Assembly (NCBI GenBank): GCA_946186945.1
Contig: CAMHPC010000015.1
Location: 1 to 32,654 of the forward strand
From: an uncultured Prevotella sp.
Lineage (GTDB): Bacteria > Bacteroidota > Bacteroidia > Bacteroidales > Bacteroidaceae
DNA: 32,654 nucleotides
Direction of reading: 5' to 3'
How positions within the stretch are numbered: position 1 is the first letter of the stretch; every line of letters starts with the position of its first letter. Below the pieces are notes generated by a model. It was not told the origin of the DNA and made no database searches. It saw nothing but the letters and a program-made list of their open reading frames with translations. This document shows positions 11,465-32,654 of the stretch, one piece after another. The translations under genes were made by a program, and so were the position numbers.

Positions 11465-12517
11465 TTAGTGTCGCTGTCTGCGTACTGTCACACGTGCCGA
11501 TGTAGAGACTGCTGAGGAATCCGAGGCATCGCGGTTTCTGCGACTCGTCTTCTCACTCTTCTCCCTGCGGCTCTTTTTCATCTTCTTGCCCTTCACCTCG
11601 CTGTTGGCTGCGGCGATACTGTCGAGAGAGTCTTTCTTTGCCGGATCGCCGAAGATATTCTTTTCGAAGTCCTTGAGTTCCTTCTCTATACGCTGTTGCT
11701 CAACCGCCATGGCAGAATCGGTGGGGCAGTATTGTGCCAATGTGCGCCCCAGCATATTGGTGGTTTTGTATATCTTACCCTTATACTTATTGGTAGTGAA
11801 ATAATCGTCCATGCTCATGGTGGCAGCGTTGTTGAGGTCGCTGGTCATGATGGTCTGTTTACTGAGATAGGGTGCCACATCATCGTACCTCACCCAGAAG
11901 AGGGGGTACTTGGCAGAACCCTCGCCGAAGTCATCCTCGCGCATGAGTATGGGACAGAGTGCGATGACCTTGCGGTGGAAGGTGGATGTAGCCTGGTCGT
12001 AGTATGCACTTTCCTTCAGGTAATAGCCTTTCACCTCCGATGATGGAATATCGCTATTGTCTATACGCACGCGTCCGTCCTTGCGTTCATAGTAGATATG
12101 GTAGTTGTTGAGGAAGTCGAGCGGTTTGATGCGTGCGCTGTCAGTGAACACCTCGTTGCCGTCGAGGCGGTACTCATACACATTGATACCACCACGGTTC
12201 GGTCCCATCAGCATGAGTTTGAAGAGGTAGGTAAAGAGGTTCATCTCTGTGCCCTGCGGTTCTACGGGATAATAGAGTCCGGCGTTTGCATCCTCTTCCA
12301 GGTTGAGTTCACGATAGATGTCGCGTCTCCACACCACATCCTCCGACATAGTGAGTGCAGTAGGGAACGAGATGCGTGCCCTGGTGGTCATATTATTGGC
12401 ATTCGACTGTGCCTGCGCCTGTTGCTGCTGTCGGGCTTTTGGCTGAGCCGACACCCACTGGGCGGCACAAGAGAGCAGACATATAACAAAGAATATTCTC
12501 TTCATATCTAAATACAC
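11465..12517 (-). CDS. gldN: T9SS protein GldN/PorN
   Basis: ALTMSEDVVWRRDIYRELNLEEDANAGLYYPVEPQGTEMNLFTYLFKLMLMG, in the expected position after gldM. Confidence 0.9.
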   Translation of the reverse strand: MYLDMKRIFFVICLLSCAAQWVSAQPKARQQQQAQAQSNANNMTTRARISFPTALTMSEDVVWRRDIYRELNLEEDANAGLYYPVEPQGTEMNLFTYLFKLMLMGPNRGGINVYEYRLDGNEVFTDSARIKPLDFLNNYHIYYERKDGRVRIDNSDIPSSEVKGYYLKESAYYDQATSTFHRKVIALCPILMREDDFGEGSAKYPLFWVRYDDVAPYLSKQTIMTSDLNNAATMSMDDYFTTNKYKGKIYKTTNMLGRTLAQYCPTDSAMAVEQQRIEKELKDFEKNIFGDPAKKDSLDSIAAANSEVKGKKMKKSRREKSEKTSRRNRDASDSSAVSTSARVTVRRQRH

Positions 12518-12519
12518 GT

Positions 12520-14076
12520 TTATTTCACTATTATTTCCATTGCGGAGGGCAGTTTACGAGTGAGTCCGTCGGGACCCACGGCATTGACATGGGTGATGTA
12601 GAAGCGCTTGTTGCGTGATAGTTTACGGAATGCGTCTTTCTGTCTGTCAGAGAAGGCGGCACCTGCCGAAGCCATAGGCACGGCGTTACCCATATTGTCG
12701 AAGAATACCGTTTCGAAACTGGTGACCTTGAATTCTATGTCGAGCAGTCCGTCGTCGATGGCAGCATGTATGCCACCCACGCCCATGAGACTGGCCTTTG
12801 CCAGACCGCCACCCTTGAAGCGGTCGTTGCCCAGGGCTATGTATGCTGTCGGGTCGGGCAGTTTGCGCACGTGGAAGATAAAGGTACCCATCTGCCTGCT
12901 CTTGCCCTGGTCGTTGGCTGTGACAGTAAAGGTGACATCCTGACCCACTGCCGAGGGCGTGGCGATATAGTGTCCGTCGCCTTTGGATGTGAGCGAGCCG
13001 CCACTCATGGATAGCGACACACTGTTCTGGGGCAGTCCTGCCACGGTGACGCTTACCGGATTGGGGTATCCTGCATACAGCACATTCATCAGGTCGGCTG
13101 CCACGGTGGCTCCCGATGGGGGCTGAATGACACGGTATTTCTGCAGGAAGTCGCGACGTATCATATCGCCATCTGCATTGCGCATGAGTATATAGCCACC
13201 AAACTGATGTTCACCCACTCCACCAGCGGTGATGGTATAGGCACCGCCCTTGCTGTTTACTCGTGTGCCGTTGACATATATCTCGGGCTGTGCTGTAGTG
13301 TCCACGGCTGCCATGACTATGTGTGTGCTCATCTGCTCGCCGGGGTAGAGTGTAGTCTTGTCGGGTATGACGAAGGCATCCAACTTGTTCACACGTATAT
13401 CTTTCAATCCGATATTTGCTATGAGTGAGTGGAGCACCTCGCCCTCTGCATAGCGCACGTCGCTCTGCAGTTTGGACAGCAGTGTGATGGCTGCCGCCAC
13501 GGGCATGGCATCAAACATATATTCCTGCCAGTTTTTGCCCAATGTATTCTCATTCTTAGGCACCTCGGTGGAGAGGTTGCTGGCTATTATCTCTTTCTGA
13601 TGAGGGTCGGGTATGAGGTCGAGTATGCGCTTGCGGTAGTTCACCACCTGGTCGAAGAGTTGCTGACCCTTACCGCTGCCAGGTGCAAGCATCACCTGTG
13701 CAGCAGCCTCCAAGTCTTCCTTGTTCTTGATATTCTTCAGGTCGGCATCATCGCCGTCTGCCTCTCTCACGATAGCCCATTTCAGTTCTTGCGCGAAGTT
13801 GTACAGCGAATCGCTCATATTCTTCACCTCGCGTGCTCTTTCATACCACTCGCGCACCTTGGTGGGATTTTCTTTCATCTGCTGCTCGAAGTCGGCAAAC
13901 ATTGCCTGATTCTCTTTGGTAGAGTTGGCTGTAGTGCGGCTGAGACTCTCCTCCACCACCGAGAAGCCATTAAGCACCTCAGTAGAGATGTTGAGTGCCA
14001 GCATAGCCATCAGAACCACATACATCAGGTTGATCATCTTCTGGCGTGGCGAGATCGGTCTTTTCTTTATTGCCAT
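12520..14076 (-). CDS. gldM: T9SS protein GldM/PorM
   Basis: ISPRQKMINLMYVVLMAMLALNISTEVLNGFSVVEESL N-terminus and the long periplasmic domain. Confidence 0.95.
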   Translation of the reverse strand: MAIKKRPISPRQKMINLMYVVLMAMLALNISTEVLNGFSVVEESLSRTTANSTKENQAMFADFEQQMKENPTKVREWYERAREVKNMSDSLYNFAQELKWAIVREADGDDADLKNIKNKEDLEAAAQVMLAPGSGKGQQLFDQVVNYRKRILDLIPDPHQKEIIASNLSTEVPKNENTLGKNWQEYMFDAMPVAAAITLLSKLQSDVRYAEGEVLHSLIANIGLKDIRVNKLDAFVIPDKTTLYPGEQMSTHIVMAAVDTTAQPEIYVNGTRVNSKGGAYTITAGGVGEHQFGGYILMRNADGDMIRRDFLQKYRVIQPPSGATVAADLMNVLYAGYPNPVSVTVAGLPQNSVSLSMSGGSLTSKGDGHYIATPSAVGQDVTFTVTANDQGKSRQMGTFIFHVRKLPDPTAYIALGNDRFKGGGLAKASLMGVGGIHAAIDDGLLDIEFKVTSFETVFFDNMGNAVPMASAGAAFSDRQKDAFRKLSRNKRFYITHVNAVGPDGLTRKLPSAMEIIVK

Positions 14077-14088
14077 CTCTGAGCGGGA

Positions 14089-14949
14089 TTAGAGGATCGG
14101 TTCGGGTGTTTGCGGGGCGGCGGCGGTGCGCATATTGACGGTCATGGCCTGTATCATGCGTGCATAAATGGCATTGAGTTGCTCTATCTGCTGAGCCATG
14201 CGGCGCGACTGCTCATTAATCTGGTCGATGGTGCCTATCTGCTGACTGGCGCTCTTGAGTTGCATTTCATACACCTTGCAGATACCTGTGAGGGTACGGT
14301 TGAGGTTTTCCATCTCTTCGCTGTCGCGTGTGAGGCGTGCACTCTGTTCGCTCACCTTGCCCAGGAGTTCGGTGAGTTTGTTGAGTTCTTCCACGTAGTT
14401 GCTTGTGGCCTCTGCCATCTCAGGCGACACCTGTTGCTGCTGACCTATCCATGCAGCCGACTGTGCGGGCACCACCTGTGCGGCACCCTCGGGTACTGCG
14501 ACAGCACCCTGTACACCAGCAGGAGAGGCAACTGCGGCTGCCACTCCCTCGGGCATATCGCTTGTGGAGCCACCCATGCCACCTATAATGATAGTGCCAC
14601 CACCCTGTATGCCTGTAGCCGTCTGACTCTGGTCAGTCTCTGCCACATTCTGTGCGGAGTCTTCCTCCTCGTCCTCGTCATCTCTCACGTGTGTAGGCAG
14701 TTCCTTGCCTATGGCAGTCTTGTCAAAGGGACGGTCGAAGGCTGAGAGGAAGAACACCACCACCTCGGTACCCATACCAAGAAACAGCATGAAGTTGGCA
14801 CCTGGCAGGTGAGTAAGTTTGAAGAGAGTACCCAGAATCACCACCGAAGCACCCCAACTGTAAGCATAGTTCAGGAAGGTCTGTCCTGGTACGCTGTCCA
14901 TCCACTTCTGCAGACGGTACACGATATTGAATTTGCTGTACTGTGTCAT
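14089..14949 (-). CDS. gldL: T9SS inner-membrane motor protein GldL/PorL (start corrected from ORF start 15219)
   Basis: MTQYSKFNIVYRLQKWMDSVPGQTFLNYAYSWGASVVILGTLFKLTHLPGANFMLFLGMGTEVVVFFLSAFDRP. The ATG at 14949 overlaps the gldK stop; the longer ORF overlaps gldK out of frame. Confidence 0.93.
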   Translation of the reverse strand: MTQYSKFNIVYRLQKWMDSVPGQTFLNYAYSWGASVVILGTLFKLTHLPGANFMLFLGMGTEVVVFFLSAFDRPFDKTAIGKELPTHVRDDEDEEEDSAQNVAETDQSQTATGIQGGGTIIIGGMGGSTSDMPEGVAAAVASPAGVQGAVAVPEGAAQVVPAQSAAWIGQQQQVSPEMAEATSNYVEELNKLTELLGKVSEQSARLTRDSEEMENLNRTLTGICKVYEMQLKSASQQIGTIDQINEQSRRMAQQIEQLNAIYARMIQAMTVNMRTAAAPQTPEPIL

Positions 14950-16406
14950 TTTTTCTTCTTGCTTGCTTTTTGTTTGGTACTTGAACTGCTTGCCAGACTG
15001 CGCACACAGCGGAAGCCGATGTAACTGCGTGGCTGGTTTTGATATTCCCAGGTGCGCCATGCAGAGCGGATGTATGACTCGGGGTCTTTCCACGAACCAC
15101 CCCTGACGCTTTTCTTCTTCAGTTTGTATGGGTCTTCCTTGGCTGCCTTGTACTCCAGTTGCGGGTTCAGGTCGTTCATGGCATCCACACCTGCCTCGGT
15201 GTATATGGTACTGGTCCATTCAGCCACGTTGCCTGCCATGTCGAACAGTCCGTTGCTGTTGGCACCATATATGCCCACCTTTGCGGTGATGAGGTTGCCG
15301 TCTTTGGTGTAATTACCCTTGTCGGGTTTGAAGTTGGCATAGAAGCATCCCTCTCCGTTTTTCACGCTTTCGTTCTCCCATGGAAACTCGTTGCCGTCCT
15401 TGCCACGTGCGGCATATTCCCATTCAGCCTCTGTGGGCAGGCGGTAGCGCTGTATGTATCGTGCCTCGGCACCCAGTCCCTTGAGCAGGTAGTCGGTGCG
15501 CCATGCGCAGAATGCCTCTGCCTGTTCCCATGTCACTCCCACCACGGGGTAGTTGTTGTATGTGGGGTTACTGAAATAGTTGCGCAGATACATCTCGTTG
15601 TCAGAGTTGCGGAAGTCGTTCACCCAGCATGTGGTATCCGGATAGACATTGACTATGTACGTATTAAGGAAGTCCCACGGTCCGGTGAGTTGGCGGTTGA
15701 TGGTTTCTCTCACTATCCTGCCTTCATCATCGATATAGGCGGTATCCTTGGATATCATCACCACTTCGTTGGGATCGACAGCCACATCGGTATTGAGGTT
15801 GCGCTCATTCGGGTCCAGGCGGTTGCGGCGCAGGGCAGCGGTGGTATAGTCATACACCTCGTACCTGTAGTTGAGTTGTTTTGCATCGAGCAGTTTCTCT
15901 CCTGTCACAGGATTGGTGACATATAGGCTCTCGATAGCCCTGAGTTCATCCTCATTGGGTTTGCGGGGCAGGTTCTTCTTCCAGTTGAGATGTGGTTTCA
16001 CTGGGTCGCCGTTTTTGTCCTCCGTGATTTTATATGTCTCATCGCCACCGTATGCAGGGTCGGCGAGTCGTTCACGGAGGATAGAGTCGCGCACCCAGTA
16101 TACGAACTGCTTGTACTTGGAATTGGTCACTTCCGTCTCGTCCATCCAGAACCCGTCCACGGATATGTCTTTCACAGGGGTCTCTTTTCCCCAGAGTGAG
16201 TCTTGGTGTTCGATACCCATGCGCAGATAGCCTCTCTTGATGAGTGTCATGCCATAAGGAGCCGGTTCGCTGAAGCCTTTGCCAGAGCCCACTCCCACCA
16301 CTTCGCCACCTCTGCCGGAGGTGGATGCCGAGCGACTGCCCATGCAGGCGGTGAGCATAGTCACTGCCACGAGGGAGAGGGTCATGATCGTTGTTCTTAT
16401 CTTCAT
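14946..16406 (-). CDS. gldK: T9SS lipoprotein GldK/PorK (SUMF/FGE fold)
   Basis: Lipobox LTAC, DGFWMDETEVTNSKYKQFVYWVRDSI, YRLPTEAEWEYAARG, GLFDMAGNVAEWTSTIY, VRGGSWKDPESYIRSAWR. Confidence 0.93.
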   Translation of the reverse strand: MKIRTTIMTLSLVAVTMLTACMGSRSASTSGRGGEVVGVGSGKGFSEPAPYGMTLIKRGYLRMGIEHQDSLWGKETPVKDISVDGFWMDETEVTNSKYKQFVYWVRDSILRERLADPAYGGDETYKITEDKNGDPVKPHLNWKKNLPRKPNEDELRAIESLYVTNPVTGEKLLDAKQLNYRYEVYDYTTAALRRNRLDPNERNLNTDVAVDPNEVVMISKDTAYIDDEGRIVRETINRQLTGPWDFLNTYIVNVYPDTTCWVNDFRNSDNEMYLRNYFSNPTYNNYPVVGVTWEQAEAFCAWRTDYLLKGLGAEARYIQRYRLPTEAEWEYAARGKDGNEFPWENESVKNGEGCFYANFKPDKGNYTKDGNLITAKVGIYGANSNGLFDMAGNVAEWTSTIYTEAGVDAMNDLNPQLEYKAAKEDPYKLKKKSVRGGSWKDPESYIRSAWRTWEYQNQPRSYIGFRCVRSLASSSSTKQKASKKKK

Positions 16407-16411
16407 ATTCT

Positions 16412-17401
16412 CTAAAGTATTCTCACACTTTTATGTTTGTTTTTTCCTTTCTTGGTCATATTGATGTCCATCTGGTATCCCACGAAGAGTTCATGGCTGC
16501 CATTGCCGATGCTGATGGCTGATGTGTACATCTCGTAACTGTATCCGATGTTGAAACCGTGGAAACTGCCTCCGATGAGCGCCGTGACGGAATTGGTGGG
16601 ACTATAAGCCACGCCGACGTACAAGCGGCGGTTCTCGTGCTTATACTGCAAGCGGGCCGTGATATCTCCACGATACCCCACCCCATCGGTGCGCACAAGC
16701 ACTGAGGGATGTATTGTAAGAAACGGATTTCTGAGTTTAATATTGTATCCTGCAGTGAAATAATATGTAGGATCGACCTGCATCTCACTGGTTTCACCCA
16801 GTTCCACGGTAGGTGCTGTGAGGTGCTGTGCCGACACTCCTACATACCATGGTCCGTGCAAATAATACAGTCCCACTCCCACATCAAGTGCCTGTCCGTT
16901 CACATCGGTTTTGCTTAGAGCGGGATCTTCGACATCTGGTTCCACGGGGTCGAGTTCGCTACCCTTGAAACGCTCTATGAGCAGTCCTGCATGTACACCG
17001 ATGCCCAAGGAGCCACCCAGGAAGTTCTTCTTCAGGGCATACTGTGCTGCCACTCGCTGATGTGTGAAGAGACCTATCTGGTCGTTCATGAGTTGAAGGC
17101 CCACGCCATGGTATGTATTGAGGGCATGGAAGGGCATGTCGCCTGCCACATACATGGTGTGTGGACTGTTTTCGAAGCCAGCGAAACTGAGTGCATAGGC
17201 GGCAGTGAGGTTGAGTTTCGACTCTTTGCCCACTGCGGCGGGGTTGAACGTAGGCTCCATCGCCCAGTAATGGCTGAACGATGGGTCGTACTGTGCCCGG
17301 GTGGTGAGTGCCACCACACTGAGCAGCGAGATGAGTATATATTTCCTTATAGACACGTGATAATAACGAGACGCAGCCGCATTTATTGTATCATCATGCA
17401 T
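16412..17401 (-). CDS. porP: PorP/SprF family type IX secretion membrane protein
   Basis: AQYDPSFSHYWAMEPTFNPAAVGKESKLNLTAAY motif; located immediately upstream of gldK. Confidence 0.92.
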   Translation of the reverse strand: MHDDTINAAASRYYHVSIRKYILISLLSVVALTTRAQYDPSFSHYWAMEPTFNPAAVGKESKLNLTAAYALSFAGFENSPHTMYVAGDMPFHALNTYHGVGLQLMNDQIGLFTHQRVAAQYALKKNFLGGSLGIGVHAGLLIERFKGSELDPVEPDVEDPALSKTDVNGQALDVGVGLYYLHGPWYVGVSAQHLTAPTVELGETSEMQVDPTYYFTAGYNIKLRNPFLTIHPSVLVRTDGVGYRGDITARLQYKHENRRLYVGVAYSPTNSVTALIGGSFHGFNIGYSYEMYTSAISIGNGSHELFVGYQMDINMTKKGKNKHKSVRIL

Positions 17402-19202: not shown

Positions 19203-19658
19203 ATGCCAGCAAAGCAATATCCTACGATAGGAGTGGAGGAGACACTGACGCTGAACAACGACATAGCGGACGTGGACGCTCTCAACCGGTTTCAGAAATC
19301 GGTCTACGAAAGGATTGGCTTGGACAAGCCAACGATGCGACAGATGCAACTGGCTGTGGAGGAGGCTGTGGTAAACGTGATGGAGTATGCCTACCCCAAG
19401 GGCACTAAGGGTGAAATAACGGTAGAGATGACATATGATAGCAAGCACCTGAACGTGAGGATAAGCGACCAAGGCATGGCTTTCGACCCTACCGCCACCG
19501 AAAGCGCGGACACCTCTCTATCTGCCGAGGACAGGGAGATAGGCGGTCTGGGCATACTGCTGGTAAGGGAACTGGTGGATGCAGTGGACTACGAACGCCG
19601 TCAGGGGAGAAACATGCTGACACTGACAAAGACAATCGAACAAGACAACAAACAATAA
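19203..19658 (+). CDS. ATP-binding anti-sigma-factor-like protein (HATPase, RsbW/SpoIIAB type)
   Basis: MRQMQLAVEEAVVNVMEYAYP (N-box), VRISDQGMAFDP (G1), GGLGILLVRELVDAVDYERRQGRNMLTLTK. Confidence 0.9.
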   Translation: MPAKQYPTIGVEETLTLNNDIADVDALNRFQKSVYERIGLDKPTMRQMQLAVEEAVVNVMEYAYPKGTKGEITVEMTYDSKHLNVRISDQGMAFDPTATESADTSLSAEDREIGGLGILLVRELVDAVDYERRQGRNMLTLTKTIEQDNKQ

Positions 19659-21775: not shown

Positions 21776-21839
21776 CCGATACTTAATACTCATTCTCAAA
21801 GAAAAATGGACATCAAAATGCGTCAAGTTTTCTTAGTTT

Positions 21840-22371
21840 AAGACAGCTGGAGATTTGGTAGCGGGAGGCATTGCTGTTAAGCTGGGCAGGGATAGCGGCG
21901 AAGATACGGGCAACTTTTCCCGAAGGATCAATCTTGTTGAAATCTTCGTCATAGATATTCAGGACAAGACGCTTGGCCTGGTCAACTGCTTCGAAATTGT
22001 TAGTATCAAGATAGGCATTAACAGCCTGAGGCATACCCCCCACTAACATGTACATACGGAAATCGCGCATCAGTTTACGGTGGGCATCCTTTAGCGGCTG
22101 AGGGTATTCCCACACGCTGCGAAGCAAAGGTATGGTGGCCGTATCGCCCAATGCCCAACGAAACTCCTCGTAATCCATCGGATACATATTGACACGCTCT
22201 TCCTCGCTTGGAATCAGAATGTGATCCGTGTTCTTGCGGATAGAAATCAAAGAGCCGGTTTCGATATAGTCGTAACGATGATCGCCGACAAACGACTTGA
22301 CGGCTTGGCGAGCCTTGGGCTGAAACTGCACCTCGTCGAAAATGATGAGCGACTTGCGCTCCTTCAGTTGG
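21840..22371 (-). pseudogene. Internal fragment of an AAA_14/DUF4143 ATPase
   Basis: Minus reading HVQLKERKSLIIFDEVQFQPKARQAVKSFVGDHRYDYIETGSLISIRKN...YPMDYEEFRWALGD...LVGGMPQAVNAYLDTNNF...PAQLNSNASRYQISS. Walker B is present; Walker A and the C-terminal part are missing. Confidence 0.8.
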
Positions 22372-22550
22372 ACGTGATAATCGAGTGTCAGGGACTGGAG
22401 TACATAGCATCGAGCGGCCTGCGCATACTGCTCGGCATACTCAAGGGCGCCAAGAGCGGCGGCAGCAAGGTGATGCTGCGCAATGTGAACGACGACATAA
22501 AGAACGTGTTCAAGCTCACTGGTTTCATCAACCTATTCGAGTTTGAGTAA
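22371..22550 (+). pseudogene. 3' half of a second STAS-domain gene
   Basis: DVIIECQGLEYIASSGLRILLGILKGAKSGGSKVMLRNVNDDIKNVFKLTGFINLFEFE, paralogous to 19790-19972; the 5' half is replaced by antisense ATPase sequence. Confidence 0.85.
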
Positions 22551-22686: not shown

Positions 22687-22728
22687 AATTATTATAGTAT
22701 CATAATTACAATATAATAATTATCTTTG
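22687..22728 (+). promoter_or_regulatory. -7 box TATCTTTG with flanking inverted repeat AATTATTATA-N15-TATAATAATT
   Basis: TATCTTTG at 22721-22728; arms 22687-22696 and 22712-22721 abut it. Confidence 0.45.
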
Positions 22729-22752
22729 CATATCAAACAAGCAGAACAATAT

Positions 22753-23874
22753 ATGACAAATAATCCTTTTATACTATATGGCTATGAGTCGGAAGAGTAT
22801 TTCTGCGACCGAGAGAAAGAAACAGCACATCTAATGAGGCTGATAGACAATGGCAACAATATATCGTTGATAGCACCACGCAGGATAGGAAAGACGGGAC
22901 TGGTGGAACACCTGTTTCATCTTCCAGAAATCAGGGAAAGGTATTACACCTTTATTATCGACATCTATGCGACTAAGAGTTTGGAAGACCTGATTATGGC
23001 GATGGGCAGTGCCATGCTGTCTACCCTTCGGCCTTTTGGAGCGAAAGTGATGAAGAAATTCACCGATTTTCTGAAGTCTCTTCGTAGCGGTATTTCATTC
23101 GACCCGATGGGCAATCCGTCATGGAATGTGGAGTTAGGCGACATTCGTACTCCAAGAGTCACGCTCGATGAAATATTTCAGTACATTGAGAATGCCGATA
23201 AGCCTTGCATTGTGGCAATAGACGAATTTCAGGCCGTCAGCTCTTACCGCGACAGCAACGCCGAAGCTATGCTAAGAACATACGTGCAGCACTGCCGCAA
23301 TGCCAATTTCATTTTCTCCGGTTCACAGCGAAGAATGATGAGTGAAATATTTCACAACTATGCTCGTCCTTTCTACCAGAGCACCACCTCTATGAAACTG
23401 GACTGCATACCCTCTGAACGATATTTGCAGTTTGCACAGGAACATTTTCTGAGGGCGGAGAAATCGTTAAATCCTGACGTGTTTCACCTGGTGTATGAGC
23501 GATTTGACGGCATTACATGGTACATTCAACGAGTGATGAACGAGTTGTATGCCATCACACCATCCGGCGGCTCATGTACACCAGACTTGACAGAAACAGC
23601 CATAGACAACATATTGAGATCTAACGAATTCAGTTATCAGTCGCTCCTGTATCAGTTGCCGCCAAAACAGAAAACACTGTTCACGGCCATTTGCAAGTCT
23701 GGTAAGGCGACCTCCATCATGTCGTCTGATTTCATCCACCGCTGGCACCTGCCGTCATCGAGCAGTGTACAGGCGGCCATAAAAGGACTGTTGGAAAAGG
23801 ATTATGTGACCGAATCTCTCGGTGTTTATGAAGCATACGACAAATTTTTCTCTCTATGGATGGTTCGACAATGA
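22753..23874 (+). CDS. AAA family ATPase (archaeal-ATPase/STAND-like, IAPRRIGKT P-loop)
   Basis: MTNNPFILYGYESEEYFCDREKETAHLMRLIDNGNNISLIAPRRIGKTGLVEHLF, IVAIDEFQAVSSYRD, FIFSGSQRRMMSEIF. ORF start 22726 overlaps the -7 box, so ATG 22753 is preferred. Confidence 0.88.
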   Translation: MTNNPFILYGYESEEYFCDREKETAHLMRLIDNGNNISLIAPRRIGKTGLVEHLFHLPEIRERYYTFIIDIYATKSLEDLIMAMGSAMLSTLRPFGAKVMKKFTDFLKSLRSGISFDPMGNPSWNVELGDIRTPRVTLDEIFQYIENADKPCIVAIDEFQAVSSYRDSNAEAMLRTYVQHCRNANFIFSGSQRRMMSEIFHNYARPFYQSTTSMKLDCIPSERYLQFAQEHFLRAEKSLNPDVFHLVYERFDGITWYIQRVMNELYAITPSGGSCTPDLTETAIDNILRSNEFSYQSLLYQLPPKQKTLFTAICKSGKATSIMSSDFIHRWHLPSSSSVQAAIKGLLEKDYVTESLGVYEAYDKFFSLWMVRQ

Positions 23875-23883
23875 ACTTAGGAG

Positions 23884-25194
23884 TCACTCATCCATAGCGA
23901 GACGCAGGCCGAGGCGGTCGCTGCGATAACCTGGTGCACGACCGTCGCGGTTTGCCACACGACAGTTGTCAGGACCACCATTCCACCCGCCACCCCGTAT
24001 GGCACGAGTAGAACTGGAGTACGGTCCCGTGGGGTCAACCTGACCGTCACTATCATAACTGCCGTACCAGTCAGAGCACCACTCCCACAGGTTACCCGTC
24101 ATGTCATAGAGACCTAACTCATTGGGTGATTTCGAGCCAACCTCGTGTGTACGAGAGCCACTTGTAGCAGAATACCACGCCACACTACCCACACTGTTAC
24201 TGCCACTATATGTATAGCCACGGCTATTGTTGCCTCCTCTGGCAGCAAACTCCCATTCCGCCTCTGTTGGCAGTCGGAAATGCTTCCCCGACAGGTCATT
24301 CAGCTTTTTGATAAATGTCTGACAATCGCGCCAACTCACATTATCAACAGGCCTGCGGGCACCTCTGAACCGTGACGGGTTGTTTCCCATCACCGCCTGC
24401 CACTCTTCCTGTGTCACCTCACAACGACCGATGCGAAACGATGATAGCGTCACATTGTGTACCGGCCATTCATCATCACCAGCACCGGCACTTTGCTCAC
24501 TGGTGGCACCCATGAGGAAGGAGCCACCATTCAGCGGCACCATATTGTTGACAATGCCCCGGACGATAGCGTCTCGCTTGTCAGTTGACGGTTCTTCAAG
24601 GACCAGATCTTGTGAAGATGTTTCAGGCGCAGCCGTTTCCTGCAACGGCCGTTCGGCAACAGTGGCAGTGTTCGGTGTGTCCTCTTTTCTTAGCAACAAG
24701 ACCAGGAACATTGCCACGATGCCAGCAGCAAGAGCACCGATGACAGCATATAGCCATTTGGAGGAAGATGGCTTTTCGGGATAATAATCCTCTCCGTCAT
24801 TATTGAAATGAGTTGGCGAAGAATTCTCTACTTGACCGACGGGATAGCCACACTTGGGGCATTTCACCGCTTTATCGGAAATCATATTCCCACATTCGGG
24901 ACATTGAATAAGTGGCATATTGAATCCATATTCTTCTGGAGTCTGAGTTCCCTCGTCGCAAGGAGCCATGTCCTCCTGGCTTGTACCAATATCATCATCC
25001 ATAATAGACTCCTTCATAGATTCATCTGTTACAAACAAGAAAGCCAACTCTTCGACTTCTTCGGCATGCTTCCATTTATCCATCCCCTTACACCATACCA
25101 GCGTTTTCGGACCCACATCAAACATGACAAGGTCATTAACTAGGATGGGACCTTGACGTGTTCTATTCTTATCCACATAATAATATACTTTCAT
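23884..25194 (-). CDS. GYF_2 + zinc ribbon + TM + formylglycine-generating-enzyme-like (SUMF) protein
   Basis: MKVYYYVDKNRTRQGPILVNDLVMF...LVWCKGMDKWKHAEEVEEL; CPECGNMISDKAVKCPKCGYPVG; WLYAVIGALAAGIVAMFLVLLL; GGSFLMGATSEQ...FRLPTEAEWEFAARGG...GNLWEWCSDWYG...RAIRGGGWNGGPDNCRVANRDGRAPGYRSDRLGLRLA. ORF start 25221 is TTG; ATG at 25194 preferred. Confidence 0.88.
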   Translation of the reverse strand: MKVYYYVDKNRTRQGPILVNDLVMFDVGPKTLVWCKGMDKWKHAEEVEELAFLFVTDESMKESIMDDDIGTSQEDMAPCDEGTQTPEEYGFNMPLIQCPECGNMISDKAVKCPKCGYPVGQVENSSPTHFNNDGEDYYPEKPSSSKWLYAVIGALAAGIVAMFLVLLLRKEDTPNTATVAERPLQETAAPETSSQDLVLEEPSTDKRDAIVRGIVNNMVPLNGGSFLMGATSEQSAGAGDDEWPVHNVTLSSFRIGRCEVTQEEWQAVMGNNPSRFRGARRPVDNVSWRDCQTFIKKLNDLSGKHFRLPTEAEWEFAARGGNNSRGYTYSGSNSVGSVAWYSATSGSRTHEVGSKSPNELGLYDMTGNLWEWCSDWYGSYDSDGQVDPTGPYSSSTRAIRGGGWNGGPDNCRVANRDGRAPGYRSDRLGLRLAMDE

Positions 25195-25327
25195 GGTATT
25201 ACCATTAAGTCGTTCTTGCAAACTTTTCTATACTAAATGAACCTTCAAGTTCTTTTATCTTTACTTTTCCGCTAAGTATATCGAAGAAGAAAGAACGTAT
25301 CCGCTCAATTGTAAGTAGTGCAGGTTT
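24832..25327. repeat. 496-bp direct repeat, copy 1
   Basis: Read line by line against 26540-27035 (offset 1708); no mismatch seen. Diverges at both ends (c/t before 24832; ata versus tcc after 25327). Confidence 0.95.
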
Positions 25328-26902
25328 ATAATCGTTACCGTTCCATTTGACAAGATAAATATCGTCAATCAGTATATCATATACCCCATTCGTTTTGGAT
25401 GTCAAAAAAGTTATTTCATAACCACCGCCAATGTTGTGGTCTGTTACTCTTCCGTCTGACCAGTAAATTTTTTCAATGAATACATAACGGCCCCATCCAC
25501 CAGCATGTGACGAGTTGCTTGTGAATACAAGGAGCTCGTCTTCTCCATCTCCATTAATATCGAAATAAATTTGCCTTGTTGCGTCTTGTTCAGAACTTTC
25601 TTCATTGAAAACGCTCATGTGGGTGAATGTTTTTTTCGCAGAAGCTATTTTCTTCCTATTAGAATCATGTTTAACAACTTTAGAACCATCAAAGCAATAT
25701 GTTTTCCGTTCTATCCCATATTTGAAAGTAAAAAGCCATTTGTCGTTTTTATACTCTACTTTGACGTCATCTTTTCCTAGATACCACCAACCTTCATCGT
25801 CACCTAAATCAATTGGATCAGTCATTTTGAATTTCCTGCTCCCTTCATCATAATAAACCACACAAAAATACGAGGGAGTATGGGCACCACCCAATTCATC
25901 ATATTGCAACAGACAATCATTTATTCCATTGCCATCATAATCGTGTTCATCAATTATCATCAACTGATAACTGCCAATACCCGTCTTTACACGTTTTCCA
26001 TTCAGCATAACACCGAGATATACAGGATATTCATCGTAGTCCGTTTCTTCTATCACGTTATAGTTCTTCACCATGTTTGCCCTCTTATTTACTGTATTCT
26101 TATACTCTTCAATCTCATTTTCATTACCCACAAACACGTATGTGCCTTTGACGTAGCCCTCTATGTTGCCCTGTCTTATTTTGTACCAATCACCTTCTTT
26201 GCCCAACACCTCCGCTGCATCACCACCAGTCATCAATTTACCTATAACCGCAGCGGAGACAGAGGGAGTTTCACGAATATTCAAAAAACCTCCTTCCGTG
26301 GTAGACAAAGCATAGGTTTTTTCTTTCTCCTCCACTTGCTCTGAAGTCATTTCTGATGAAGAATCACCTGCTGTTGTTTCCTGTGAGGCAGAGTTTCTCA
26401 AGAGCAAGATTATCACAGTTACCAATGCTACCACCAATATTCCTATAATGGCATAAATCCATTTTCGGGAGGATGGCTTTTCAGCATAATAATCCTCTCC
26501 GCCATCATTGAAACTGCGAGTTGGCGAAGAAACTAGTGTTTGACCGACGGGATAGCCACACTTGGGGCATTTCACCGCTTTATCGGAAATCATATTCCCA
26601 CATTCGGGACATTGAATAAGTGGCATATTGAATCCATATTCTTCTGGAGTCTGAGTTCCCTCGTCGCAAGGAGCCATGTCCTCCTGGCTTGTACCAATAT
26701 CATCATCCATAATAGACTCCTTCATAGATTCATCTGTTACAAACAAGAAAGCCAACTCTTCGACTTCTTCGGCATGCTTCCATTTATCCATCCCCTTACA
26801 CCATACCAGCGTTTTCGGACCCACATCAAACATGACAAGGTCATTAACTAGGATGGGACCTTGACGTGTTCTATTCTTATCCACATAATAATATACTTTC
26901 AT
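25205..26902 (-). CDS. GYF_2 + zinc ribbon + TM + SH3b + Ca-binding-like protein, C-terminus shared with upstream gene
   Basis: Same N-terminus as 23884..25194; SH3b TTEGGFLNIRETPSVSAAVIGKLMTGG...GDWYKIRQGNIEGYVKGTYV; DYDGNGINDCL and DINGDGEDELLVF; last 38 aa ALLTIERIRSFFFDILSGKVKIKELEGSFSIEKFARTT identical to the 26913..27884 product. Confidence 0.85.
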   Translation of the reverse strand: MKVYYYVDKNRTRQGPILVNDLVMFDVGPKTLVWCKGMDKWKHAEEVEELAFLFVTDESMKESIMDDDIGTSQEDMAPCDEGTQTPEEYGFNMPLIQCPECGNMISDKAVKCPKCGYPVGQTLVSSPTRSFNDGGEDYYAEKPSSRKWIYAIIGILVVALVTVIILLLRNSASQETTAGDSSSEMTSEQVEEKEKTYALSTTEGGFLNIRETPSVSAAVIGKLMTGGDAAEVLGKEGDWYKIRQGNIEGYVKGTYVFVGNENEIEEYKNTVNKRANMVKNYNVIEETDYDEYPVYLGVMLNGKRVKTGIGSYQLMIIDEHDYDGNGINDCLLQYDELGGAHTPSYFCVVYYDEGSRKFKMTDPIDLGDDEGWWYLGKDDVKVEYKNDKWLFTFKYGIERKTYCFDGSKVVKHDSNRKKIASAKKTFTHMSVFNEESSEQDATRQIYFDINGDGEDELLVFTSNSSHAGGWGRYVFIEKIYWSDGRVTDHNIGGGYEITFLTSKTNGVYDILIDDIYLVKWNGNDYKPALLTIERIRSFFFDILSGKVKIKELEGSFSIEKFARTT

Positions 26903-27035
26903 GGTATTACCATTAAGTCGTTCTTGCAAACTTTTCTATACTAAATGAACCTTCAAGTTCTTTTATCTTTACTTTTCCGCTAAGTATATCGAAGAAGAAA
27001 GAACGTATCCGCTCAATTGTAAGTAGTGCAGGTTT
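26540..27035. repeat. 496-bp direct repeat, copy 2
   Basis: See copy 1 (24832-25327). Confidence 0.95.
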
Positions 27036-27884
27036 TCCATCTTTATCAGTCCCGAGGTCATAGGTTTTCAGTGTCTGCGGTCCCAGCGCTGCTGCCGTGA
27101 GAAGGAAATGATTTTGGAATCTGTCTGTATCTATCAAATCTGCAGCCAAAACTTTACCTACTACGCTATAACTATGAAGTGATCGTTGTTGTTCACCGTC
27201 AGTCAGCACTGTATGCAAATCATCAGACGCAGGGTTTATTTCAATCCGTCCACTCTCTTCACTTTCCTCTTGATGTCTATACAATGATCCAAGATCAGCC
27301 AGTGCAAGAGAATATACATGTGTTGTTTTAGTATAGTTTACACGTTCTGTGCTGAATACAGAAGGCAACAGCAAATTGACATTGCCGTCTAATTCGACAA
27401 GAGGCGAAATGAAAGTTCCGACGATGCAATCCTTTACGAATAGGGTTTGTGTAGCAAAGACGCCACCTATTACGACGCAGTTCTCAAGTGTTATTTCATC
27501 ACCATAAAGACTCCCTGCTACAAAAGCATTGCTCAATGCTATTCTTTTAGCATTAACATCTGAGCAGAAAGTTGTCATACATTTCATCGCCCTAGAGACA
27601 ACAGAGGAAGCCGAGCCAACGGCTTTTCGGAATGTCACAGTTCCAGAGACATCATTGTTAATGTATAATTCATGTAGAGTGAACACCGCACCATTCACTT
27701 CTAATGGTGCAGCTTCTATTGTTAGTTTATCAGCATAAAGAGGTCCCTCTACAACCGTTTCGCCTACTACATTTACGGTTCTGGAAAGTTCGGACATCTT
27801 ATTAGGCAGGATACCGCCTTTTACGATATTATTATCTAAGCGGATATTAGTGTCTGTCAAATGGATTTCCTTTAAATTATTCAT
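26913..27884 (-). CDS. Bactofilin-like / beta-helical repeat protein
   Basis: Repeating short strands: VNVVGETVVEGPLYADKLTIEAAPLEVNGAVFTLHELYINNDVSGTVTF...LYGDEITLENCVVIGGVFATQTLFVKDCIVGTFISPLVELDGNV. Confidence 0.6.
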   Translation of the reverse strand: MNNLKEIHLTDTNIRLDNNIVKGGILPNKMSELSRTVNVVGETVVEGPLYADKLTIEAAPLEVNGAVFTLHELYINNDVSGTVTFRKAVGSASSVVSRAMKCMTTFCSDVNAKRIALSNAFVAGSLYGDEITLENCVVIGGVFATQTLFVKDCIVGTFISPLVELDGNVNLLLPSVFSTERVNYTKTTHVYSLALADLGSLYRHQEESEESGRIEINPASDDLHTVLTDGEQQRSLHSYSVVGKVLAADLIDTDRFQNHFLLTAAALGPQTLKTYDLGTDKDGKPALLTIERIRSFFFDILSGKVKIKELEGSFSIEKFARTT

Positions 27885-28917
27885 GATTATTAATTAATTT
27901 ATTTAACATTTTATTTATCATTGCCCTTACTCTTATTGAATGATTGTCGTCTCCACTGAGTTTATTGGCAATTTCTGACTGCATATATGACTGAACAGTA
28001 TCAGAGACACACATGCCAATTTCTTCCAACTCTATTTCATCAAGGGTTTCACATAGTTTGTCCTTCAATGATTTATTCTTGAAATATAAATCAGGAATGA
28101 AACATTCTCTTTTTACTCGTTCAGACTCTGATACTGTTTTCAAGAAACATACAGGAATAAAATAGTTATCATCACCTGTTCCCTCAACGGAAGTTTCCTG
28201 GATAGTCTTTTCTGAAGTTGCTTTTATTTTCAAAAATGCTTGCGCCTGACTCATAGCCTCCAAAGCGTGATTCTTCACAGTTGCAGCACTAATCTGAGCT
28301 TGCAACACACTGCTCTCTTTGCCCATGGTAACAGCGGTCTGAACCATATCAGTATGAAGCATTCTATCACTCTGGGTGTCTACCGCCTTTACGAGTTCAA
28401 AAACAGGTTTGTCTACTTCATGAATCCTAACAGAGAGTTCGTTATTCAGATCAGCAAAGAGTTTCTGGTATCTTGCAGATGTTCGTGCATAATCATCTGA
28501 CATCTTTTTTTGTTTATTACGTAGTGTTGCTGCTTGCTGCCGAAGGAGCAGAAGCCTTGCTTCTATGACCTGTTCCAGCTCTGCCTGCTGTGTAGATAAA
28601 TCTGTACGAACAGTATGAAAGAATCCGTCAATTATAGACTTAGATATTTTATCAGCATTCTCTGTTATCGCAATGCACTGTGCGGCATTCATGGCACCGA
28701 CACTTGCAGTAAGCCCGTTAACAGAACTATTACAACTCTGAACACCTTCTTCAAATGGTGAAGTATCAACATAAACATCTACATCTACATCTTCATAGGC
28801 AGTACCGCTATAATTTACGTTCAGGGTACCTCCAGATTGAGATGCCGGATAGCTTACTGTTTTTGAACCACTATAATGACAAGATACAGTTTGTCTAAAT
28901 CTTCTTCTATACCCCAT
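27877..28917 (-). CDS. Coiled-coil protein, paralogue 2, with Gly/Ser/Tyr-rich N-terminal extension
   Basis: MGYRRRFRQTVSCHYSGSKTVSYPASQSGGTLNVNYSGTAYEDVDVDVYVDTSPFEEGV...; overlaps the downstream ORF by 8 nt; aligns by eye to 28928..29836. Confidence 0.75.
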   Translation of the reverse strand: MGYRRRFRQTVSCHYSGSKTVSYPASQSGGTLNVNYSGTAYEDVDVDVYVDTSPFEEGVQSCNSSVNGLTASVGAMNAAQCIAITENADKISKSIIDGFFHTVRTDLSTQQAELEQVIEARLLLLRQQAATLRNKQKKMSDDYARTSARYQKLFADLNNELSVRIHEVDKPVFELVKAVDTQSDRMLHTDMVQTAVTMGKESSVLQAQISAATVKNHALEAMSQAQAFLKIKATSEKTIQETSVEGTGDDNYFIPVCFLKTVSESERVKRECFIPDLYFKNKSLKDKLCETLDEIELEEIGMCVSDTVQSYMQSEIANKLSGDDNHSIRVRAMINKMLNKLINNHE

Positions 28918-28927
28918 AAAGAATAAT

Positions 28928-29836
28928 TTAAAGTGTTTCTATATTTGCCGAGGAATACATCTCTTTTATAACATTCTTCACCCTTGGCGAAGAGCTGGAA
29001 GTTTCGAGGATATGAGAGAACTCTTCAGTGATTTCTGCTGAGGAACCTTCTTGACGCCAAGGTAAGTCCGTTTCGTTTCTTATGAAGTCACCGATAGACG
29101 CCAAATTGGAACCTACGATCTGACCATTAGCTACCACTTTCATTTGCGGGATTCCTACCGAGTTATCGATGGTTTCCCATACAATCACCGGTATCTGATA
29201 CGCTTTATCTTCATTTCCCTTAAGGTTGCTTATCAAAACTTTATCTGTCAACACTCTTTGTTCGCCTATTTGCAATAGGAAATTAGCGGATTGTTCTAAA
29301 GCTGATTTTGCGTTATACTTAATTCTGGAAACCAATATTTGCTGGCTTTGATAAAGCCCTTCAGTCTGTGATGTCGAAACACAACCGATCAGAGCGTGCA
29401 TTCTATTCGATGCTGTGACCATGTGTTTGTTAACAAATTCAAAAACCGGTTGATCCAGTTGGCGTATTCTTTGTTCGAGTCCTTTGTTGATAACAGTAAA
29501 AATACGAAGATAGCGTTCAGTTATTCTACCATATTCACGTTCCATATTAGCTTTTATGCCGAGTAATTGACGTTTTTGTTGAGCCAACTTCATCAACAAT
29601 GCTTCAACACGACTTTGTTTGTTTGCAATCTTCTGTGAAATTTGCGATTGTAATAACGCAAAGAAACCACGGTTAACGTTTTTGCAGACTTTATCAGCAC
29701 TGGCATTTTCTGCTGCAATGACAGCGCTCTCCATCGCTACTACCGCCGCCGTTGTCCCCATAACATGTTTAGAAACACTTCGAAGTTCATCAGCCATTGG
29801 AGTGGTATCAACCTCACATGGAATTAATGTTGCCAT
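28928..29836 (-). CDS. Coiled-coil protein, paralogue 1
   Basis: VDTTPMADELRSVSKHVMGTTAAVVAMESA...RITERYLRIFTVINKGLEQRIRQLDQPVFEFV; preceded by AGGAG Shine-Dalgarno-like sequence. Confidence 0.75.
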   Translation of the reverse strand: MATLIPCEVDTTPMADELRSVSKHVMGTTAAVVAMESAVIAAENASADKVCKNVNRGFFALLQSQISQKIANKQSRVEALLMKLAQQKRQLLGIKANMEREYGRITERYLRIFTVINKGLEQRIRQLDQPVFEFVNKHMVTASNRMHALIGCVSTSQTEGLYQSQQILVSRIKYNAKSALEQSANFLLQIGEQRVLTDKVLISNLKGNEDKAYQIPVIVWETIDNSVGIPQMKVVANGQIVGSNLASIGDFIRNETDLPWRQEGSSAEITEEFSHILETSSSSPRVKNVIKEMYSSANIETL

Positions 29837-29878
29837 ATTTATTCTCCTAAAAAATATTAAACAATATTACACACGATA

Positions 29879-29941
29879 TCATTTAGACAATGGGGGTTGC
29901 CATTTTGAAGGGGAAGGGTTACTGCCACCTCCTTTTGACAT
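29879..29941 (-). CDS. Putative 20-aa peptide MSKGGGSNPSPSKWQPPLSK
   Basis: ATG on minus strand at 29941, stop TGA ending at 29879; starts 10 nt after the stop of the 672-aa ORF in an otherwise unexplained ~115-nt gap. Confidence 0.4.
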   Translation of the reverse strand: MSKGGGSNPSPSKWQPPLSK

Positions 29942-29951
29942 TTCGAAAGTA

Positions 29952-31898
29952 TCAAACTTCATCGGGAATATCTGGGATGTCATCCTCATCAGGTATATCC
30001 CCTTCTTCAATATCAAAATTTTCATTGTTGGCCATCTTAGATTCTTCTACATTATCTATTGTAATATTACTAACTGCGTCTAATGCAGTAACAGCAAGGG
30101 ATGGAAGATTAAGGGAAAGGTGCTCAAAAGTCACATCCTCTACATTTGGTTCTGGCAATAGTACTGATTCTTTTGCAAGCAATGGGTTTGTAAAAGCGAG
30201 AGGTTTACGACGATTATCAAGATTTTGAACTTCTCCTGCCGCTATTGCCATTGAATTTGAATAGCCATCCTGCAAGCGTGCATCGTAAAACTCCACATGG
30301 CCAAATTTTTCGGCTTTCAGAGCTATGTCTTCCTGAAGCCTGTCCATATAATCACAAAACTCATCCTGTACTCTTTTAAATTCTATTGCCTGATTTTCAA
30401 ATGCGGCTAGTGTTTCGGTACTATTATCCTGTTTCTGAACGATGGTCTTATCCAAAGTTGCTCCTTCCGTTTCCATATTTTCTAGTGTTTTCTGCAGTTG
30501 AGACAATGTGTTATAAGCTTCTACATATTCACTTAAAGTCTGTTGCATGTTGTTAATGATGTCTGCACTTTCTGCGTGATTAGAGCGATAAAAAGCATCT
30601 ACATCTTGATGCCACTTATTCAAATAGCTAATCTTTTGATCGTGTATTTGGCTATAAATACGGATACGCTCTACTCGATTTTCCATCATAAGACGTTGAA
30701 CCATTGGTGCTACGATTTCCTCATAGATTTGGTGGACCCCAAAAGGAACACTTGCACTACTATTATCTTCTGCCATCCACTCATCAGCAAAAAGATTATA
30801 TCGTACGCGTGAACTTTCCCGAAGTTGAAAAGGTTCATATCCCTGGATCGAATCTGCATAATCAAAACGCTCGTTGCGAATTCGCATTATTTCTTCCGCT
30901 TCAAGAAGTGGTGAATAATGATTATAAGGCGACTTAAGAATTCTGAACAGCAAATCGTTCGACTTATTTACGACTTTATCCGTGGAAGCCAATTTCAAAG
31001 CCGAAATGGTTTGTACTGACATTGCCATGGTATGCATAAGGTGTTTTAGCACATCCTCGAATTGCTCTGTATCACTTGACAACGAGTCCTTGAGTTTGTT
31101 CAATTGGCAGAAATCATTAATTTCATTATCATATTTCTTATCGTCAAAGATGTTAACTACAGGATGATTACCAGGGTCGCTGGTTGTATATTCATCCAAG
31201 AACGCCAAATAATCACTGTTACCTGCCACTAATGGCAAATCAACAGATTTCACTTCCGTATCGTTCATGCAGTATGAAATAGTACGAAGTGACCTATCAA
31301 GTTTACCCACATAATCACTTTGCGTAACTTCCTGTATAGAAAGTGAATAATCGTTTGTATCAATGCTTTCTGCTTCATTAGAAGTTTCAACAATTGGTGC
31401 TTCTAAGGTAAGATTCTCCATCTGCGACATTGTTTTCGCTAGTAAATCACTTTGGCGAGGCAACTGCAAGCTCACTCTAGAAAGAGGGACATTACCTGTG
31501 TAGTCAACCACAAAACACCTGTCTTCGTATGACATTTGACGTGCGACAGGAATATAGGCTACACCCATTTTTGTCACCTTATAATCCCTAAATATATTAG
31601 CATACTCTGTTTGTTTCTCTGCAATCTTTTCATCAATTGCCTCGATTTGCCTATTATACTTATTACGGCGTATCCAAAACATGAAGAATGCCACAATCGT
31701 CAAGAACCATTTCCAAATATCACTTTTTAAAAGTTCCACCTGTTCTCTGTCCGACTGCAGCTGTTGTATTTGCATTTCTAAAGTTTCTTCTTGTCGAACA
31801 ATACGTTCTGCTGCCTGTTCATAAAAATTGAACAACAGCCGAGCCTGATCTTGATAGATGTTGCTCGAATCATTGAATATCTTTCCTGTTGTTGACAT
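29952..31898 (-). CDS. Large TM + coiled-coil protein with acidic C-terminal tail
   Basis: MSTTGKIFNDSSNIYQDQARLLFNFYEQAAERIVRQEETLEMQIQQLQSDREQVELLKSDIWKWFLTIVAFFMFWIRRNKYNRQIEAIDEKIAEKQ; tail EEGDIPDEDDIPDIPDEV. ATG 31898 preferred over 31970, which overlaps the upstream gene. Confidence 0.75.
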   Translation of the reverse strand: MSTTGKIFNDSSNIYQDQARLLFNFYEQAAERIVRQEETLEMQIQQLQSDREQVELLKSDIWKWFLTIVAFFMFWIRRNKYNRQIEAIDEKIAEKQTEYANIFRDYKVTKMGVAYIPVARQMSYEDRCFVVDYTGNVPLSRVSLQLPRQSDLLAKTMSQMENLTLEAPIVETSNEAESIDTNDYSLSIQEVTQSDYVGKLDRSLRTISYCMNDTEVKSVDLPLVAGNSDYLAFLDEYTTSDPGNHPVVNIFDDKKYDNEINDFCQLNKLKDSLSSDTEQFEDVLKHLMHTMAMSVQTISALKLASTDKVVNKSNDLLFRILKSPYNHYSPLLEAEEIMRIRNERFDYADSIQGYEPFQLRESSRVRYNLFADEWMAEDNSSASVPFGVHQIYEEIVAPMVQRLMMENRVERIRIYSQIHDQKISYLNKWHQDVDAFYRSNHAESADIINNMQQTLSEYVEAYNTLSQLQKTLENMETEGATLDKTIVQKQDNSTETLAAFENQAIEFKRVQDEFCDYMDRLQEDIALKAEKFGHVEFYDARLQDGYSNSMAIAAGEVQNLDNRRKPLAFTNPLLAKESVLLPEPNVEDVTFEHLSLNLPSLAVTALDAVSNITIDNVEESKMANNENFDIEEGDIPDEDDIPDIPDEV

Positions 31899-31917
31899 AA
31901 GATAATAGATTATATTG

Positions 31918-32529
31918 TTAATACCTTTTCCTTCTTGATAAAATACTTTCAAGATTATCAATTTCTTCAAAGATTTTTTCTTTGTTTAATGTTGTATTTT
32001 TCATTAAGACCTTCAGGTCCTTGACAGATTGGACGAATTGATATTCCAAATTCTTTGCATCTGCATTTGACGTTGGACTAAGATAGCGAATAGAATCACA
32101 CAGAGACAATATTCTACATTTAATTGACTCGTCAATTTGTTGAGATGCAGGAACTTCGTCCATAAGATCATTCATAACATTTTGCAATACCATTTTTCCT
32201 CCGACAATTATTTGTTCCTTTTCATAAATTTGCTGTACTTTTACACCAGAATGCAATGTGGCGACACGCCCCATTATTAAGATGAGAAATAAAGCTAAAT
32301 GCCCCATTAGCTGATACTTGAATTGTATCTGATTGACAATGCTCCAAACGATGAACCCCATTGAAAACAAGCAATATACGCTCAGAGCAAACATGTGTAT
32401 CCCCATCATTCCTACCTCTTTGTGAGCAGGTTTGTCGAGATTAACAAGTGGGAACAATAAGAATTGAACAAATTGTGTAAGAACAATGCAAGAAACGACT
32501 ATATCAAGTATTTTCACCTCGCATTCCAA
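31918..32529 (-). CDS. Multi-TM protein with C-terminal helical region; true start likely further upstream
   Basis: Hydrophobic segments ILDIVVSCIVLTQFVQFLLF, MFALSVYCLFSMGFIVWSIV, LMGHLALFLILIMG. The frame stays open upstream (KLNQSVAELRIYTILGIFLGYGLIIGGFTILGES). Confidence 0.65.
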   Translation of the reverse strand: MECEVKILDIVVSCIVLTQFVQFLLFPLVNLDKPAHKEVGMMGIHMFALSVYCLFSMGFIVWSIVNQIQFKYQLMGHLALFLILIMGRVATLHSGVKVQQIYEKEQIIVGGKMVLQNVMNDLMDEVPASQQIDESIKCRILSLCDSIRYLSPTSNADAKNLEYQFVQSVKDLKVLMKNTTLNKEKIFEEIDNLESILSRRKRY

Positions 32530-32654
32530 GGATTCTCCAAGGATTGTAAAACCTCCAATTATAAGTCCATATCCAAGGAAAATACCAAGTATTGTATATA
32601 TCCTTAATTCCGCAACACTTTGATTTAACTTTATTTATAAGTTCCTGAGCAACA

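Follow-up and report, generated by a model that had tools for sequence, protein, structure and literature searches.

An undescribed six-gene operon with optional GYF adaptors in an uncultured Prevotella and in scattered bacteria: a possible scaffold under the inner membrane

In B. subtilis PspA is brought to the membrane by YdjI, an SPFH protein, together with the membrane proteins YdjG and YdjH, and membrane recruitment of YdjI requires YdjG/YdjH (PMC8581546). YdjG combines zinc ribbons, a transmembrane (TM) segment and an NTF2-like domain (PMC11237479). Here we describe an operon from an uncultured Prevotella sp., for which this PspA-YdjGHI system, as the best analogy, is the nearest described arrangement. 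The operon lies in a stretch of 32,654 nt (the window), which is one complete contig (C15, CAMHPC010000015.1) of a 185-contig, 2.65-Mb metagenome-assembled genome (MAG) with 89.6% completeness. As seen in relatives, its full core encodes, in this order, an SPFH/zinc-ribbon protein, a protein with four TM segments (TM1), a large helical protein (MEM), two coiled-coil proteins (CC2 and CC1) and the protein BAC. The operon is a genuine, previously undescribed six-gene block, the order of which is kept in bacteria scattered over at least four phyla.

The operon resembles PspA-YdjGHI in that a single operon encodes an SPFH protein with C-terminal zinc ribbon(s), dedicated membrane partners and coiled-coil proteins of polymer type. 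In addition, the combination of zinc ribbons, TM segment and extra domain in YdjG resembles the adaptors found here. The differences are that the operon lacks PspA, adds MEM, the CC1/CC2 pair and BAC, and has GYF adaptors with exchangeable C-termini. PF04012 (PspA/IM30) gave no match in the window genome, as far as this MAG covers it, and none in the core genes of the window. Since PspA is absent, the operon is not a Psp system; we group it with SPFH-linked membrane systems, as it has one core component and the logic of its adaptors in common with a known system.

Toastrack/LiaI-LiaF-TM and other PspA-free PSP-partner systems, in which a beta-helical cytoplasmic platform and TM partners are proposed to assemble sub-membrane complexes (PMC11237479), would be alike in the plan of a sub-membrane platform with TM partners. 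In contrast to these systems, the operon has no Toastrack or PspC match and no transcription regulator or two-component genes. Archaeal ESCRT 'Meth_adaptin' loci also place an SPFH/zinc-ribbon protein beside coiled-coil proteins (PMC10936438), but no match to Vps4 ATPase, ESCRT-III or winged-helix domains was found among the core genes here.

Conservation and distribution of the operon

With iterated profiles, the exact order SPFH-TM1-MEM-CC2-CC1-BAC was found in 59 of 86 loci from Bacteroidota, Bacillota, Spirochaetota and Fibrobacterota; three of the loci are in the set of 86 twice, having been retrieved from two databases, which makes the independent number slightly smaller. Most of the remaining loci run off contig ends. 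The original prediction, made from the window sequence, had named a lack of co-occurrence in other genomes as the outcome that would speak against it. The genes co-occur in the same order, and a description of the operon was not found in the open-access literature (subscription papers were outside this coverage), which upholds the view of a multiprotein set that is unrecognised, co-inherited and attached to the membrane. The six core proteins show correlations of 0.81–0.96 between their pairwise distances, values that are descriptive, as closely related loci share ancestry; the core genes co-diverge.

The operon is rare. A CC1 homologue is present in six of 301 genomes of the same family, the window genome included, across five of 30 genera, and the loci of these genomes share the gene order. 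BAC was found in 7 of 399 family genomes, and MEM, among 396 genomes of the phylum, in the window genome only. A pattern scan derived from the MEM alignment covered one genome per species for 85,462 species and yielded 83 relatives, 80 of which were fetched; this count is a lower bound, since the patterns were built from two short conserved peptides. All carriers belong to Bacteroidota, Bacillota, Spirochaetota and Fibrobacterota, plus one Ignavibacteriota, and the Bacteroidota/Ignavibacteriota are set apart from the other carriers in the MEM tree. Cultured hosts of the operon include Barnesiella sp. An55 and Labilibaculum filiforme. No operon was found on plasmids with MEM as query, in phages with BAC as query, or in viral contigs with the BAC profile. 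Clustering of the genes beside the operon left the GYF family as the sole clearly recurrent same-strand neighbour at position +1; an exonuclease-like gene recurs near the operon in three related loci. In three Bacteroides loci (L076, L078 and L080) the gene upstream of MEM encodes a Sel1-repeat protein that has a TM segment and replaces SPFH and TM1; these loci represent an operon variant in culturable species.

In relatives the operon extends beyond the part present in the window and begins with a gene for an SPFH (Band_7_1) domain (E = 2e-33) and several zinc ribbons. The succession of Band_7_1 and zinc ribbons, which is the YdjI-type SPFH architecture, was found in the first operon gene of L017, L018 and L087. 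The window has about 65 nt upstream of TM1, and no frame within them resembles an SPFH C-terminus. As the window is an entire contig, the operon is cut off by the contig end ahead of the SPFH gene. Judged from the relatives, this gene presumably lies beyond the contig end; the rest of the incomplete MAG contains only an SPFH homologue of 25% identity.

Core proteins and layout in the window

For TM1, MEM, CC1 and CC2 no reliable Pfam or NCBIfam match was obtained, and MEM and CC2 have no PDB sequence match. AlphaFold models of the latter two gave no significant fold match in the PDB. The CC2 model shows a helix of 116 residues (mean predicted local distance difference test score, pLDDT, 80; predicted template modelling score, pTM, 0.28), and the MEM model is mixed and mostly helical (pLDDT 70, pTM 0.36). 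CC1 and CC2 are true paralogues, as originally predicted (hhalign probability 100%, E = 1.5e-56). Of the two membrane proteins in the original prediction, TM1, which is 50–54% identical to TM1 of L016 and L017, was borne out by its four hydrophobic segments, while MEM turned out to be mostly soluble and helical with a single hydrophobic stretch, which stays under the hydropathy cut-off in the window copy.

Several candidate relationships were set aside. A match of MEM to GldM (E = 4e-5) was limited to one coiled-coil stretch and probably reflects a coiled-coil signal; scattered weak Pfam matches of CC2 members likewise look like coiled-coil noise. Homology of CC1, CC2 and MEM to PspA/ESCRT-III was rejected by hhalign against a PspA profile (probability <1%), and the same comparison was negative for TM1.

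BAC had been called bactofilin-like, and this holds only weakly. While 51 of 66 BAC proteins match Pfam Bactofilin at E values up to 1 (best 8e-5), the window BAC gave no such match, PF04519 had no match in the window genome, and a direct profile comparison was not significant, with only two bactofilin sequences on the bactofilin side. A 16-residue periodicity in the hydropathy of BAC did not exceed that of shuffled sequences. With its 323 amino acids (aa), BAC also differs from bactofilins (PF04519) by a long additional C-terminal region.

All seven predicted open reading frames (ORFs) are present on the minus strand, in the order TM1, MEM, CC2, CC1, BAC, GYF/SH3 adaptor and GYF/FGE adaptor (Table 1). 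Their tight spacing, including the 8-nt overlap of CC1 and BAC (27877–27884), was confirmed; the gap between TM1 and MEM is 19 nt, and a looser gap of 115 nt separates MEM from CC2. CC2 and CC1 are 10 nt apart. The 10-nt gaps between BAC and GYF/SH3 and between the two adaptors hold with ATG starts at 26902 and 25194, which were set by comparison with homologues; the upstream TTG starts mechanically listed for these genes are unlikely. Comparison with relatives placed the MEM start at the ATG at 31898. The listed start of TM1 is a TTG at 32529, but homology extends to about 32588, where no ATG was seen close to the contig end.

The description of the operon as AT-rich also applies: the guanine-cytosine (GC) content is 38% across the operon core versus 52% in the first 23.8 kb of the window. 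At 62 other loci operon and flanks match in GC content (mean difference −0.6 percentage points), and therefore a reading as recent horizontal transfer is confined to the window genome. Where an estimate of dS was possible, the ratio of nonsynonymous to synonymous substitution rates (dN/dS) of the window genes versus relatives does not exceed about 0.1.

Table 1. Positions of the operon genes and associated features in the window
Feature	Position	Strand	Description
TM1	31918..32588	-	About 230 aa, four hydrophobic segments, second operon gene; from ORF, homology and hydropathy of homologues
MEM	29952..31898	-	648 aa, mostly helical signature protein with long helices, beta inserts and one hydrophobic stretch
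MEM C-terminal acidic/proline tail	29955..30026	-	Motif IPDIPD; proposed GYF docking site
CC2	28928..29836	-	302-aa coiled-coil protein, paralogue of CC1; predicted 116-residue helix
CC1	27877..28917	-	346-aa coiled-coil protein, paralogue of CC2
BAC	26913..27884	-	323 aa, beta-rich, weakly bactofilin-like; final core gene
Direct repeat R, copy 2	26540..27035	-	496 nt; BAC 3' end, intergenic gap, GYF and zinc ribbon
GYF/zinc ribbon/TM/SH3 adaptor	25205..26902	-	565 aa from likely ATG; domain matches
Direct repeat R, copy 1	24832..25327	-	496 nt, 100% identical to copy 2
GYF/zinc ribbon/TM/FGE-domain adaptor	23884..25194	-	436 aa from likely ATG; domain matches

Adaptors, MEM tails and a direct repeat

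Downstream of the core, adaptors follow a common plan of GYF and/or zinc ribbon, one TM helix and a variable C-terminal domain. Both window adaptors carry GYF_2 and a zinc ribbon in domain searches, one together with SH3_3 and the other with FGE-sulfatase. Across loci the C-termini comprise SH3, FGE, YARHG, MORN/BACON and an L12-like domain, and some loci have zinc-ribbon/TM proteins without GYF. The C-terminal part is predicted to be an extracytoplasmic sensor or binding domain, so that these proteins, previously termed effectors, are better described as optional adaptors.

MEM tails vary widely among loci. Those in loci with GYF adaptors bear [ILVM]-P-x-[ILVM]-P-[ED] (IPxIPE-type) motifs: such a tail was found in 7/7 GYF-adaptor loci versus 0/57 others (Fisher P = 1.6e-9), the motif and the regular expression for GYF having both been defined after inspection of the data. 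For L022 and L090, which were earlier scored as lacking GYF, the tail motif prompted a direct search that revealed a GYF gene downstream of BAC. The motifs far exceed those in shuffled tails; the window tail has only one, a number reached by 8 of 2000 shuffles. Because GYF adaptors occur exactly where the tail has IPxIPE-type motifs, docking of the GYF domain on the MEM tail is a well-motivated hypothesis. The MEM tails of L050 and L093 themselves carry zinc-ribbon-like CxxC motifs, which suggests that the tail may be a variable docking platform.

The prediction of two TM proteins with GYF_2, zinc ribbon and differing C-termini was correct as to the domains, but the two genes are not independent: the region is a mosaic with an exact direct repeat (R), which the prediction had missed. 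The two 496-nt copies stop abruptly, with no exact extension past either end. Each spans the BAC 3' end, the gap, GYF and the zinc ribbon, which results in the layout BAC-[R]-SH3-[R]-FGE. The SH3 gene runs in frame into the copy of the BAC tail, so that its last 39 aa are a fused BAC C-terminus; a distant relative of the extracytoplasmic domain of the SH3 adaptor ends near the SH3-to-repeat junction. With the BAC 3' end inside the repeat, the exchange or loss of a C-terminal module could be clean, and recombination between the R copies would remove SH3 while both BAC and the GYF-FGE gene stay intact. The extracytoplasmic parts differ in GC content (55% for FGE, 38% for SH3), consistent with different origins. 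Each form exists alone elsewhere, as a GYF/zinc-ribbon/TM/SH3 protein follows BAC in L090 and a GYF-FGE protein follows BAC in L021. The repeat exceeds the length of a short read, and an assembly artefact was considered as its cause; the tandem R-SH3-R-FGE arrangement is nevertheless probably real, as the SH3-to-repeat junction is continuous and contains no Ns. A diversity-generating retroelement acting on the FGE C-terminus was considered and rejected, as its last 177 nt match only themselves in the genome, as far as the incomplete MAG extends.

An AAA/ATPase_2 protein (22726–23874, plus strand) converges on the FGE adaptor with a gap of 9 nt; it gives weak PADLOC PDC-S27 matches (E = 1e-5), and its adjacency to the operon is not conserved. 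On the same contig, a cluster at 11465–17401 looks by eye like core genes of a type IX secretion system (T9SS; PorP-like, GldK/PorK, GldL, GldM and GldN-like) and includes an FGE-domain match at 15000–16253. An RsbW-like kinase (19203–19658, plus strand) and a STAS-like ORF (22221–22550, plus strand) lie about 2.5 kb apart, and an ATPase fragment (21813–22331, minus strand) overlaps the 5' end of the latter; this region looks like an insertion or rearrangement. Similar transposase-like ORFs at the far end of the contig (98–661, plus strand) and just downstream of the operon in L017 (13275–14291, plus strand) are a possible mobility link.

A possible scaffold under the membrane and its alternatives

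We tentatively favor the view, at slightly less than even confidence, that the operon gives rise to a scaffold on the cytoplasmic side of the inner membrane with optional envelope sensors. The SPFH/zinc-ribbon protein would oligomerise, with the 4-TM protein and MEM tethering it to the membrane, and CC1, CC2 and BAC would make up a filamentous or sheet-like body. The optional single-TM adaptors would attach to the MEM tail through the GYF (or zinc-ribbon) domain on their cytoplasmic side, and their swappable domain outside the cytoplasm (SH3, FGE, YARHG or MORN) would report on the envelope or bind to it. Recombination within the common BAC-3'/GYF/zinc-ribbon segment would allow one adaptor C-terminus to replace another. 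As judged from the adjacent TM1 gene and by analogy to YdjI, the SPFH protein may depend on operon-encoded TM partners for its membrane recruitment. The operon may thus act like YdjI with YdjG/YdjH in envelope protection in B. subtilis, with its own polymer in place of PspA; the envelope-stress role proposed earlier is retained as the best analogy. That the operon represents a categorically new type of scaffold, an SPFH-nucleated polymer of four or five undescribed families with plug-in GYF-docked sensors and repeat-mediated exchange, is conceivable but less likely than not.

Several points weigh against the proposed scaffold. The low pTM values of CC2 (0.28) and MEM (0.36), together with the missing PDB fold match, make the assembly a guess. 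The SPFH gene is not in the window, nor is it present at high identity elsewhere in the incomplete MAG. No stress regulator recurs beside the operon, the promoter of which lies outside the window. The adaptor is absent from most loci. All seven GYF loci belong to one MEM clade and are therefore not independent, and within this clade the contrast is only 7/7 versus 0/3 (L023, L027 and L055). Furthermore, eukaryotic GYF domains bind PPG-phi motifs and not IPxIPE, so that the latter is a putative ligand.

An unlikely explanation is defence against phages or competitors, in which the core would be a membrane-associated platform for sensing or pore formation and the variable adaptors would be recognition parts. 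It would agree with the patchy, rare distribution in the family and phylum genomes, with the variable C-terminal modules and the recombinogenic repeat, and with the presence, in some conflict systems, of GYF proteins and of effectors that have an FGE-type ('FGS') domain (PMC7159879). However, PADLOC E values of the seven operon proteins were 0.019 or weaker, and the core has no NTPase, nuclease or recognisable toxin domain. No defence-like neighbour recurs, the flanking genes not having been scanned against a defence library, and the searches of plasmids, phages and viral contigs described above were negative. The lack of a variable adaptor in most loci also argues against this explanation. 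The defence role that the original prediction had considered thus received no positive evidence.

We consider it similarly improbable that the operon is a cell-shape or cytoskeletal apparatus, in which a bactofilin-like polymer and membrane-anchored coiled coils serve morphology, polarity or division. The weak Bactofilin matches of most BAC proteins, the long coiled coils and the membrane anchors would fit, but neither the profile comparison nor the 16-residue periodicity of BAC supports a bactofilin, and the rarity of the operon speaks against a housekeeping role. To our knowledge, bactofilin loci do not usually include an SPFH/zinc-ribbon protein or sensor domains outside the cytoplasm, which also counts against this explanation. 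A compartment, vesicle or secretion-related assembly, with an SPFH cage and a helical shell acting on vesicles or specific cargo, is very unlikely: a distant bacterial SPFH homologue is reported to surround a membrane compartment as a 24-mer, and archaeal ESCRT loci contain SPFH/zinc-ribbon proteins (PMC10936438), but no cargo gene recurs alongside the operon, CC1, CC2 and MEM lack homology to PspA/ESCRT-III, and carriers among the Bacillota make a link to the T9SS unlikely.

A six-gene unit with fixed order in at least four phyla, mostly without family models, is a strong candidate for an undescribed cell-envelope machine. If the scaffold reading is correct, the operon ties SPFH proteins to a non-PspA polymer and bears on the cooperation of SPFH proteins with membrane-repair polymers. 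The relation between GYF adaptors and proline-containing tails provides a docking code that is simple and testable, as is the route that the repeat offers for the exchange of sensor modules testable. As cultured hosts carry the operon, it is open to testing now.

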